From a virus: DNA of 25,716 nt. The stretch spans positions 1 to 25,716 of the IMG/VR virus record IMGVR_UViG_3300012919_000034. The stretch is one strand, 5' to 3'. Made by a program: the position numbers and the translations under genes. Under the pieces are notes generated by a model. The model was not told the origin of the DNA. It was given only the letters and a program-made list of their open reading frames with translations, and made no database searches. Shown here one piece after another: positions 5,437-13,729 of this stretch (position 1 is its first letter; every line of letters starts with the position of its first letter).

Positions 5437-5649
5437 ATAAGATATTATTTGACATTATGGAATTTTATGGGTTAAAATAGGATTTGAAGGTGTATGGTTT
5501 GCAGTGGTACATCTTCAAAACTCCGCGGCAAGTTTTCGTTATTCTTGCCGTAATAATGTTGAACATGGAGGGAGTGAGGTGGTGTTAAAAATCCTTTCTT
5601 GCGAAGCCTCACTTCCAAAGTGTTTCACTAAATAGAGTAGGAATTTAAA
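5437..5649 (+). other. Structured 213-base gap: three successive hairpins, candidate leader RNA or ncRNA
   Basis: No gene with a plausible length is present. Hairpin 1 pairs TTTGAAGGTGTA (5483-5494) with TACATCTTCAAA (5508-5519): 12 pairs with one G-T wobble and a 13-base loop. Hairpin 2 pairs CGGCAAG (5526-5532) with CTTGCCG (5544-5550) around an 11-base loop. Hairpin 3 pairs GGGAGTGAGG (5570-5579) with CCTCACTTCC (5607-5616), 10 pairs with one wobble and a 27-base loop. None is followed by a T-run. A promoter-like pair precedes them. A ten-codon frame (ATG 5556 to TAA 5588) could be a leader peptide but may be chance. Confidence 0.55.
5449..5478 (+). promoter_or_regulatory. Candidate sigma-70-type promoter
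   Basis: A consensus -35 box TTGACA at 5449-5454 is followed by an 18-base spacer and TAAAAT at 5473-5478 (five of six matches to TATAAT). It stands 12 bases after the helicase stop and points towards the hairpin-rich leader and the ribbon-helix-helix gene. This is the best promoter match I noticed in the window. Transcription from it is inference. Confidence 0.55.
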
Positions 5650-5832
5650 ATGGATCCAGATAAATGGAAATCAGTAGCCGTATCCAAGAAAACATGGAGT
5701 AGGCTAAAGGAACTGTCGGAAGACAGTGAGAGGTCAATAGGTGGCGAGATATCTTTTCTTGCAAAACAAGAGTATCTTTCTAAGAAGATGGATCGAAAGT
5801 ATCCTATTGACAAAGAGAAAGCTGAAGTTTAA
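5650..5832 (+). CDS. Small ribbon-helix-helix-like protein (60 aa), probable transcription regulator
   Basis: The pattern fits a single ribbon-helix-helix (Arc/CopG-type) domain: a short strand KSVAVS (residues 7-12), then helix A KKTWSRLKELSEDSE, a turn at RSIGG, and helix B EISFLAKQEYLSKK. Proteins of this fold bind DNA as dimers, usually at palindromic operators, and often repress their own operon. A charged tail KYPIDKEKAEV follows. The assignment is from the pattern 'VxVSxxTWxRLKELsEdxxRSIxGEIsFL', not from a search. The gene is preceded by the hairpin-rich gap and carries an 18-base palindrome across its stop codon. The ribosome binding site is weak (AGGAA at 5639-5643). Confidence 0.65.
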   Translation: MDPDKWKSVAVSKKTWSRLKELSEDSERSIGGEISFLAKQEYLSKKMDRKYPIDKEKAEV

Positions 5833-5839
5833 ACTTCAG
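5822..5839. promoter_or_regulatory. 18-base perfect palindrome over a stop codon, candidate operator
   Basis: CTGAAGTTTAAACTTCAG is a perfect dyad with no spacer. It extends outward by a G-T wobble and an A-T pair to 5820-5841. It covers the stop codon of the ribbon-helix-helix gene and lies 45 bases before the next start. Candidate operator for that regulator, or a small RNA hairpin between the two genes. No T-run follows, so it is not a typical terminator. Confidence 0.45.
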
Positions 5840-5884
5840 TTCCAATACCGAAGGGTATAAACTTTAACGTAGAAGGAGAGAACG

Positions 5885-6454
5885 ATGAGTGATGTGTTTT
5901 CACTATTCGAAGAAGAGGCAGCTGACCCTCAAGCATTTAATAAAGTTAGCGAAGGAGAGACTTCAAAACTCTCTTCATTAATTAGGCAATCAATCGATCT
6001 TGGTAAAGAGGTCGAGCTTGCTGAAAAACATCTAAAAGACTTACAACAAAGAAAAAGAACTGTTGATGAGGAAGATATTCCATCATTAATGGATCAACTC
6101 GGTGTTGAAAGTTTAACTGTTGATGGCAACAAAGTTTCCATAGATAAATATGTATCGGCTAGGATTCCTGACGATAGAAGGGAAGAAGCATTTAGCTTTA
6201 TTCGTTCTATTGGCGAAGGCGATATTATTAAGAACGAAGTTGTTGTCGGATTTGGTATGGGTCAAGATAATATAGCAGGATCCGTGGTTGATGATTTACG
6301 CAACAAGGGATTAGAACCTGCACAAAAGACACATATCCACCCAATGACATTGAGGACTTGGGCGAAGAACCGAATAGAAAAAGGCGATACAATAGACTTT
6401 GATCTGTTTGGTATTTATGTTGGTAACCGTGCAAAAATAAGGGGAGCAAAATAA
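5885..6454 (+). CDS. Conserved phage coiled-coil protein (189 aa)
   Basis: The N-terminus is acidic (SLFEEEAADPQ). Residues about 25-60 (SSLIRQSIDLGKEVELAEKH and onward) form a likely coiled coil that runs into EEDIPSLMDQLGVESL. The C-terminal half contains ARIPDDRREEAFSFIR and HIHPMTLRTWAKNRIEKGD, then LFGIYVGNRAKI. I recognise this order from marine phage proteins commonly labelled only as 'coil-containing'. They sit next to the gene for the SSB-like protein, as here. A perfect ribosome binding site AAGGAG (5873-5878) precedes the ATG, so strong expression is likely. Its stop shares one base with the next ATG (TAATG). A replication accessory role is inferred from context only. Confidence 0.75.
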   Translation: MSDVFSLFEEEAADPQAFNKVSEGETSKLSSLIRQSIDLGKEVELAEKHLKDLQQRKRTVDEEDIPSLMDQLGVESLTVDGNKVSIDKYVSARIPDDRREEAFSFIRSIGEGDIIKNEVVVGFGMGQDNIAGSVVDDLRNKGLEPAQKTHIHPMTLRTWAKNRIEKGDTIDFDLFGIYVGNRAKIRGAK

Positions 6455-7245
6455 TGAAAAGTGCAGTTGCGTCAAAGAAAGCTACAGATGTAGCAGTTCC
6501 TGATCTTTCATCTTTGTTAGAGGAAGAGGCAGGAGCAGGACTTGAGAGCTTTACAACAGAGGACATGCAGATACCTTTTATAAGGATACTGCAAGCTTTG
6601 TCTCCACAGTTGAACAAACAAGATAGTTTGTATATCAAAGGTGCTGAACAAGGCGATATCTTCAATACTGTATCACAACAAGTGTACAAGGCAGACGAAG
6701 GTATTACTGTAGTTCCTTGTTTCTTTGAGAAAAAGTTCTTGGAGTTTGCTTTAAGATCTACAGGTGGTGGTTTTATAAAAGAACTAGCATTTGACGATAA
6801 GGACATAACATTAGCAACAAGAGATGGTGCAGCCGAAATTTTACCTTCGGGTAACGAGTTGGTTAGAACCCATCAACATGTTGTTATGGCTATGGATAAT
6901 GAAACCAAGCTAGGTGCTCCTGCTATTCTTGATATGAAAAAGACACAACTAAAAGTGTCTCGTAGATGGAATACATTAAAGAATGGTATCAGATTACCTT
7001 CGGGTAAACCAATGCCGTTGTATGGAACTGCTTGGAATATTCAAACTATAGCAGAAAGTAATGACCAAGGTAGTTGGTATAACTACAAGGTTGAACGAGT
7101 CTATGATATCACGAAAGAAATAGAAGCGATGATGTTAGAGGCTAGAACTATGTATCAAAGCTTCAGAAAAGGGGAGATTAAAACGGCTTCTGCACCTGCT
7201 GATGAAATGCAGAGTGCACAGAAGGATGACGAAATACCGTTTTAA
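6454..7245 (+). CDS. Conserved phage protein with SSB-like acidic C-terminal tail (263 aa)
   Basis: The core segments MQIPFIRILQALSPQLNKQD (about 31-50) and EGITVVPCFFEKKFLEF, together with GAPAILDMKKTQLKVSRRWN, are familiar from phage proteins next to replication genes. The last eight residues, QKDDEIPF, copy the acidic, Phe-ended tip that bacterial SSB proteins use to recruit replication and repair enzymes (typically DDDIPF). This makes a single-stranded-DNA-binding or recombination-mediator role plausible, but I see no certain OB-fold signature. It overlaps the coiled-coil gene by one base, has GGGGAG (6441-6446) before its start, and is closed by a strong terminator. These facts suggest the two are produced together in quantity. 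Confidence 0.65.
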   Translation: MKSAVASKKATDVAVPDLSSLLEEEAGAGLESFTTEDMQIPFIRILQALSPQLNKQDSLYIKGAEQGDIFNTVSQQVYKADEGITVVPCFFEKKFLEFALRSTGGGFIKELAFDDKDITLATRDGAAEILPSGNELVRTHQHVVMAMDNETKLGAPAILDMKKTQLKVSRRWNTLKNGIRLPSGKPMPLYGTAWNIQTIAESNDQGSWYNYKVERVYDITKEIEAMMLEARTMYQSFRKGEIKTASAPADEMQSAQKDDEIPF

Positions 7246-7255
7246 TTGAAACAAA

Positions 7256-7293
7256 GTCGTGGCTGGTCCTCCAAGCCACGGCTCTTTTTTTTT
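7256..7293 (+). terminator. Strong intrinsic terminator
   Basis: GTCGTGGCT (7256-7264) pairs with AGCCACGGC (7274-7282) with one wobble, around a nine-base loop. It is followed at once by TCT and a run of eight further T (to 7293). It sits ten bases after the stop of the SSB-like gene, in the right place to separate that highly translated pair from the primase gene. Confidence 0.92.
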
Positions 7294-7303
7294 GGAGTGA
7301 AGA

Positions 7304-12918: not shown

Positions 12919-13091
12919 CGAACAGGCTTACAATATGCAGTAATTTTAGCTGTTTTGCCATCTAGCAGTGGAACATCGGGTTGATTGTTCAAACGTCTAG
13001 CAAAATACAAACAAGTATTAATATTTTCAAATCTTTGTGTCTGATCTACCACTCTTTCGTTGAGCATAAAGATCAGAAGAAACTCTATCAT
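12909..13091 (-). CDS. Small conserved phage protein (60 aa)
   Basis: The product begins with a hydrophobic stretch, MIEFLLIFMLNERVVDQTQR, followed by FENINTCLYFARRLN and ends GKTAKITAYCKPV. I recall 60-70-residue proteins with this layout at the end of late operons in marine podovirus-like phages, none with a known function. The hydrophobic part is only about ten residues long, which is too short for a standard membrane helix and makes a holin unlikely but not excluded. The start overlaps the stop of the upstream 213-residue gene by four bases (ATGA). The stop lies within the terminator of the opposing block. Confidence 0.65.
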   Translation of the reverse strand: MIEFLLIFMLNERVVDQTQRFENINTCLYFARRLNNQPDVPLLDGKTAKITAYCKPVRKN

Positions 13092-13729
13092 TCATCTTTT
13101 GCCTTCCAAAAGTATTCATCTGTATCTCCGAGTCTGAACTTTTGTCCATTCTCAACTTGATATATTTCTGTGCTAACTTTGAAATCTGGTTGCAATGGTT
13201 TATCTGGCGTAAGTGAATTATCGTAAACACGCATTCTATTGTTTGGATACAAACAAAATTGTCCGTTTTCTAATTCTATTATATTATGTGATTTATGTTC
13301 GGCTGGTTTTTCACTCGTAGAATAATCTATTGCATTTATATCTTCGTGATAATTATCAAGAGTGCATACATACGATCCTTTTAAAATACCATGATCCCTT
13401 GTATAAACTTCGAAGTCCATAGTTCCTATGAACTGTTTGCTAACTGCCACCACCCCATAATCCATGCAATTCCAAAACTGGAGATTATAAAGATCCATAT
13501 CTGGAGTTGGGGTCTGTGGTTTAACAGTAAAAGCACTAATAGGTAGTTTATCGTAAAGAGCACCATAGTCAGGCAGATAAGTTTCAAAATAAAAAGCTCT
13601 ACCTGGAATAGACTTTGCTGTAATCCAAACACCTTTTACAAACTCCCCATGACCATCTGCTCCATCTCTTAAATATTCTTTTCGCACCCATACATCTATG
13701 GAAGGTAAATTAACAACTAATGTAGACAT
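13088..13729 (-). CDS. Conserved marine-phage protein of unknown function (213 aa)
   Basis: The protein starts MSTLVVNLPSIDVWVRKEYL and contains PGRAFYFETYLPDYGALYDK, PDMDLYNLQFWNCMDYGVV, an acidic YTRDHGILKG segment and NGQFCLYPNNRMRVYDNSLT. These long conserved blocks match a protein I know from many marine podovirus-like genomes, where it sits near the endolysin and late structural genes and has no assigned role. Beta-rich composition with many Tyr and Phe residues suggests a folded globular domain. No membrane or signal segment is visible. It begins one base inside the stop of the HNH-like gene (TAATG), so it is part of the late transcript. Confidence 0.8.
   Translation of the reverse strand: MSTLVVNLPSIDVWVRKEYLRDGADGHGEFVKGVWITAKSIPGRAFYFETYLPDYGALYDKLPISAFTVKPQTPTPDMDLYNLQFWNCMDYGVVAVSKQFIGTMDFEVYTRDHGILKGSYVCTLDNYHEDINAIDYSTSEKPAEHKSHNIIELENGQFCLYPNNRMRVYDNSLTPDKPLQPDFKVSTEIYQVENGQKFRLGDTDEYFWKAKDE

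Follow-up and report, generated by a model that had tools for sequence, protein, structure and literature searches.

Leaders with a 5′-terminal stem-loop are known in bacterial and phage messages, those of the ompA type and the early leaders of T7 among them, and T7 also carries RNase III processing sites between its early genes. A different role is played by the put antiterminator RNA, which works through the zinc-binding domain of the RNA polymerase β′ subunit. In phage HK022, putL is a pair of stem-loops that closely follows PL (PMC9378689).

Here we describe a block of three hairpins in a 25.7-kb virus record, which was analysed over its whole length of 25,716 nucleotides (the window). The block resembles the ompA and T7 early leaders in that a stable hairpin lies at the transcript start, 5′ of the first gene and with no terminator, but it has three hairpins and is lineage-specific. 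Like putL, it has two stem-loops right after an early phage promoter (PMC9378689), and differs from it in possessing a third hairpin and in having no known sequence similarity. In our estimation the chance is about even that this block serves the regulator/replication operon as a structured 5′ leader acting in cis.

The promoter, the hairpins and the genes around them

The + strand genes of the window encode a methyltransferase, a helicase, a 60-aa regulator, a DUF7307 (gp33-like) protein, a gp34-like protein, a primase, a helicase and a DNA polymerase. The gp33-gp34-primase order is common to HTVC023P-type pelagiphages and the window, at low identity. Most relatives (L005, L025 and others) have a gene of about 150 aa in the gap between the helicase and promoter P1, which, as judged by eye, looks like a PD-(D/E)XK-type nuclease; the window is without it. 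The GC skew changes sign near 12.8 kb, at the site where gene direction switches, and the late half includes a ferredoxin-like auxiliary gene on the − strand (13088-13729; phrog_3704, E = 4e-107). The features of the regulator region are as follows.

5449-5478, + strand: promoter P1, TTGACA, an 18-base spacer and TAAAAT (11 of 12 consensus matches), with transcription expected to start near 5485
5480-5524, + strand: hairpin 1 by folding, 16 pairs and 1 isolated pair, beginning about where transcription is expected to start
5525-5551, + strand: hairpin 2 by folding, 8 pairs and 1 isolated pair, adjoining hairpin 1, with a loop that varies among copies
5558-5628, + strand: hairpin 3 by folding, outer helices of 2 and 6 pairs, a main stem of 11 pairs (5570-5580/5606-5616) and an inner helix of 3
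5639-5642, + strand: Shine-Dalgarno AGGA of the regulator gene, 10 bases past the outer helix of hairpin 3
5650-5832, + strand: Arc-like (ribbon-helix-helix) regulator gene, 60 aa, the first gene 3′ of the leader
5885-6454, + strand: gp33-like gene

The promoter proposed in the preliminary description is borne out: with TTGACA at 5449 and TAAAAT ending at 5478, P1 matches a sigma-70-like promoter better than any other site in its region, and many relatives have the same TTGACA element 5′ of the regulator operon. The same description identified the first gene as a ribbon-helix-helix regulator, which is probably right, as the family of this 60-aa protein matches Arc structures by profile (E = 1.6e-4 for 1u9p); a predicted model of the regulator (single-sequence, pLDDT 74) gave no match in a fold search.

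The three consecutive hairpins previously noticed after the promoter are confirmed as structure beyond that of shuffled sequences. The 146 bases from 5480 to 5625 fold at −55.1 kcal/mol (z = −6.04), none of 200 shuffles being equally stable, and the block takes the second rank for unusual folding among 704 windows on both strands, the first being 7155-7300, which contains a terminator. The stem sizes first given, 12, 7 and 10 pairs, were slightly too low, and hairpin 3 runs beyond 5616. As had been stated, no hairpin is followed by a T-run, and no terminator-like site is present there on the + strand, so that promoter and start codon flank the block without an intervening terminator. The gap is also gene-free in the window, as described.

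A strong promoter and a strong structure in a gap could be expected of a free-standing small RNA or a riboswitch, both of which the preliminary description had entertained. We consider this very unlikely, because the block has no terminator of its own, no conserved core is shared with other phages, and an Rfam scan found no family at the gathering score, either for the block or in 12 related loci. The closest entry, DUF805b (RF02914), matches weakly just 5′ of the regulator RBS (5618-5643; 19.5 bits, E = 0.0023), below the gathering score of 35.6, and this match does not cover the hairpins.

Three copies of the block

Syntenic loci (L numbers) were retrieved via the helicase and the gp33 protein, and their gaps were then compared; all close relatives compared are metagenome contigs. 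The block was found in three phage records only, the window, L001 and L083. The sister phage L002, whose gp33 is 98% identical, has the same promoter followed by a short leader with an RBS and no block. For this reason the block appears to have been gained recently, or lost recently in L002, and its absence there means that it is either dispensable or very recent. Past these three records, no homologue was found by translated search, DNA patterns or covariance model: the covariance model of the block revealed no additional copy among 44 related records, the DNA patterns of hairpins 1 and 3 had no true copies elsewhere in IMG/VR, and annotated phages and plasmids contained no match to the block. 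Two extra pattern hits were rejected as copies, both lying in unrelated sequence, and a genome search with the block pattern returned 20 hits from diverse bacteria. The pattern GGGAGTGAGG...CCTCACTTCC is repeated in Paludibacteraceae contigs (L183, L185, L186, L188 (MAG RGIG7483), also L179 and L181), where it is probably an unrelated dispersed hairpin repeat.

Three copies only, absence from L002 and the lack of homologues in the searches would all fit a neutral or hitch-hiking insertion, that is, structured DNA tolerated between a promoter and a gene. We nevertheless regard such an insertion as unlikely, since the pairs are kept in every copy and the changes are concentrated outside the stems. 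All 43 pairs are intact in the three copies; there are two stem changes, both in hairpin 1 and both leading to G-U, and outside the stems there are 8 substitutions and a 2-base indel (stem versus non-stem, p = 0.045). This retention of pairs weakly favours an RNA, the copies being few, and among these near-identical copies there is no double compensatory change.

The space could also be filled by a small protein gene. In L001 and L083, an intact frame of 47-49 aa, with an ATG and an upstream AGGA, spans the block, but in the window the start codon is altered to GTG and a 2-base insertion shifts the frame. When L001 is compared with L083, 6 of the changes in the frame are non-synonymous and 2 are synonymous, versus 2 and 10 in the flanking genes, and the frame matches no family. 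With the frame broken in the window and the changes mostly non-synonymous, this reading was rejected as extremely improbable.

In L083, an 86-aa gene of unassigned function, which has homologues in L019 and L027, is inserted 5′ of the regulator gene, and the block stays with P1 although the next gene there is the 86-aa one. That gene was considered as the carrier of the block and rejected, as its homologue in L019 follows a short leader. The block is thus tied to P1 rather than to any particular following gene, which suggests that it acts at the message's 5′ end.

Structured leaders have at least three origins at the regulator site

Other relatives hold different multi-hairpin leaders immediately 5′ of the regulator start, with no recognisable sequence in common with the block. 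Two hairpins are found in the L133-L147 leaders, three in those of L149-L153 and L154/L194/L195/L159, and one or two in L251 and L278-L335, while L027 has a 15-bp hairpin ahead of its homologue of the 86-aa gene. For the last hairpin, most p values for stability against shuffles were 0.003-0.05 (0.11 in L329); in two relatives with a short leader the fold was not beyond shuffles. In L133-L147 the hairpin pairs are kept and three of them are changed on both sides, as expected of compensatory change; the one pair changed on both sides in the L319-L303 group is not above shuffles. A cross-group count of stems was left out as proof because the helix was picked separately in each sequence.

On a gp33 tree of 101 rows, where some leader types were assigned by hand from folds, leader type needs four changes. 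The structured leaders fall into a 26-row clade composed entirely of hairpin leaders (support 100/99), L027, and the window trio, which has L002 among it. Structured leaders at the regulator site therefore have at least three separate origins, and the hairpin of L027 was gained independently of the 26-row clade. The block is best read as a replaceable leader confined to one lineage, not as a conserved RNA gene. That related phages independently carry structured leaders at the same place further argues against a neutral insertion.

The shape of these hairpins bears on two other explanations. Cleavage of hairpin 3 by RNase III, releasing the downstream message, would be consistent with its approximately 17 pairs interrupted by internal loops and with the asymmetric internal loop in the last hairpins of L133-L159. 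The L278-L335 leaders, with only about 9 pairs and a large loop, speak against a processing site, and we hold it to be quite improbable. In L149-L159 and L133-L147, this asymmetric loop has a conserved TTTCTCC on its 3′ side while both flanking stems change, the pattern expected of a protein-binding site, for which it is a candidate.

Alternatively, the nascent hairpins could bind RNA polymerase in the manner of put and allow read-through of terminators such as that at 7255-7293. In geometry only, a pair of adjoining hairpins right where the transcript would begin recalls putL, and a strong terminator does lie 1.6 kb downstream of the block. The same terminator, however, is present in near relatives that have a short leader and no block, a further difference from HK022, so the block is probably not needed for read-through; we consider a put-like role distinctly unlikely.

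Returning to the cis-acting leader, three observations speak for it: the fold is far above shuffles, all pairs are kept, and no terminator precedes the gene. Comparison with relatives adds support that we take as suggestive, namely the structured leaders at the same place in the 26-row clade and L027 and the compensatory pairs in L133-L147. Against it count that the three near-identical copies are the only ones and include no doubly compensated pair, that L002 is without the block, that the analogous leaders do not resemble it in sequence, and that loop-RBS pairing does not exceed chance. The covariation or conservation of stems in related phages, on which the preliminary description made its reading depend, is thus found in part: the block's own copies have no double compensatory change and L002 is without the block, but compensatory changes do occur in the analogous hairpins of one related subgroup. 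Of the roles first put forward, the regulatory leader is favoured, since the block is preceded by a conserved promoter and followed by a start codon, no terminator is present and analogous leaders occupy the same site; neither the small RNA nor the riboswitch-like element gains support.

As such a leader, the block would be transcribed in a message that starts at P1 and runs into the Arc-like regulator gene and then the gp33-like and gp34-like genes. The transcript would begin with hairpin 1 or close to it, and hairpin 3 would end about 10 bases 5′ of the RBS. The block would then act in cis on the fate of its own message. Most likely it would protect the 5′ end against decay and determine how well ribosomes reach the regulator gene, and a bound protein may be involved. 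The last loops of the leaders are pyrimidine-rich (TCCTTTC, TTTCTCC; in hairpin 3 of the window the pyrimidine-rich loop segment is TCCTTTCTT), which suggested masking of the RBS. When this was tested, pairing of the last-hairpin loop with the regulator RBS proved no better than that of shuffled loops or with other RBSs, and it was rejected.

Hairpins downstream in the replication operon

Two further RNA elements lie downstream of the block, the first of them shortly after a second promoter.

5807-5835, + strand: promoter P2 of the gp33-like gene (TTGACA, a 17-base spacer and TAAACT), within the 3′ end of the regulator gene and conserved in relatives
5845-5864, + strand: conserved leader hairpin ATACC-GAAG-GGTAT followed by AAACTT, 5′ of the gp33-like gene
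7255-7297, + strand: terminator-like hairpin before the primase gene, by folding and stem covariation (stem 7255-7264/7274-7283, T-run 7285-7293)

The GAAG hairpin lies about 10 bases 3′ of the −10 box of P2. More than 230 loci, repeated contigs included in the count, each have a single CYGAAGRGnnnAAACTT motif in this position. Its GAAG loop is invariant and its four-pair stem covaries, with 95% of cells paired and 39 cells changed on both sides (covariation score 0.54 versus 0.14 in shuffles).

The gp34-primase gap holds a hairpin and T-run, with TCCTCC in the loop of most relatives. In HTVC023P this gap is 5 bases long, and HTVC027P, a distant relative for which RNA-seq of infection exists (PMC12753301), may lack the elements described here. 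For seven pairs of the stem, all 147 cells remain paired, and in 25 of these both sides have changed. In the window, CTCCA in the loop (7269-7273) is the complement of TGGAG in the primase RBS (7293-7297), and in L278, L286, L287, L310 and L330 the loop ACCACACTC and the RBS GAGTGT are complementary over 6 bases. The loop is thus a putative anti-Shine-Dalgarno element. The joint change of loop and RBS in one subclade is the main evidence, because shuffled-loop tests per sequence were marginal (best p about 0.02) and five rows (L133, L144, L147, L159 and L320) require G-U pairs. The GAAG and primase hairpins have stronger support as RNA elements than the three-hairpin block.

For this uncultured phage group, the literature searched appears to contain no description of control at the RNA level, and we found no pelagiphage paper on such elements in it. 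It is conceivable, though rather unlikely, that the replication operon is run by a chain of leader RNAs, in which a replaceable array precedes the Arc-like regulator gene, the covarying and almost universal GAAG hairpin precedes the gp33-like gene and a terminator hairpin with an anti-Shine-Dalgarno loop precedes the primase gene. One phage or host factor might read all three, and the proportions of the replication proteins would thereby be set by RNA structure. The leaders offer defined RNA targets that can be tested, and for the GAAG and primase hairpins the covariation is sufficient to warrant experimental work and new entries for RNA families.
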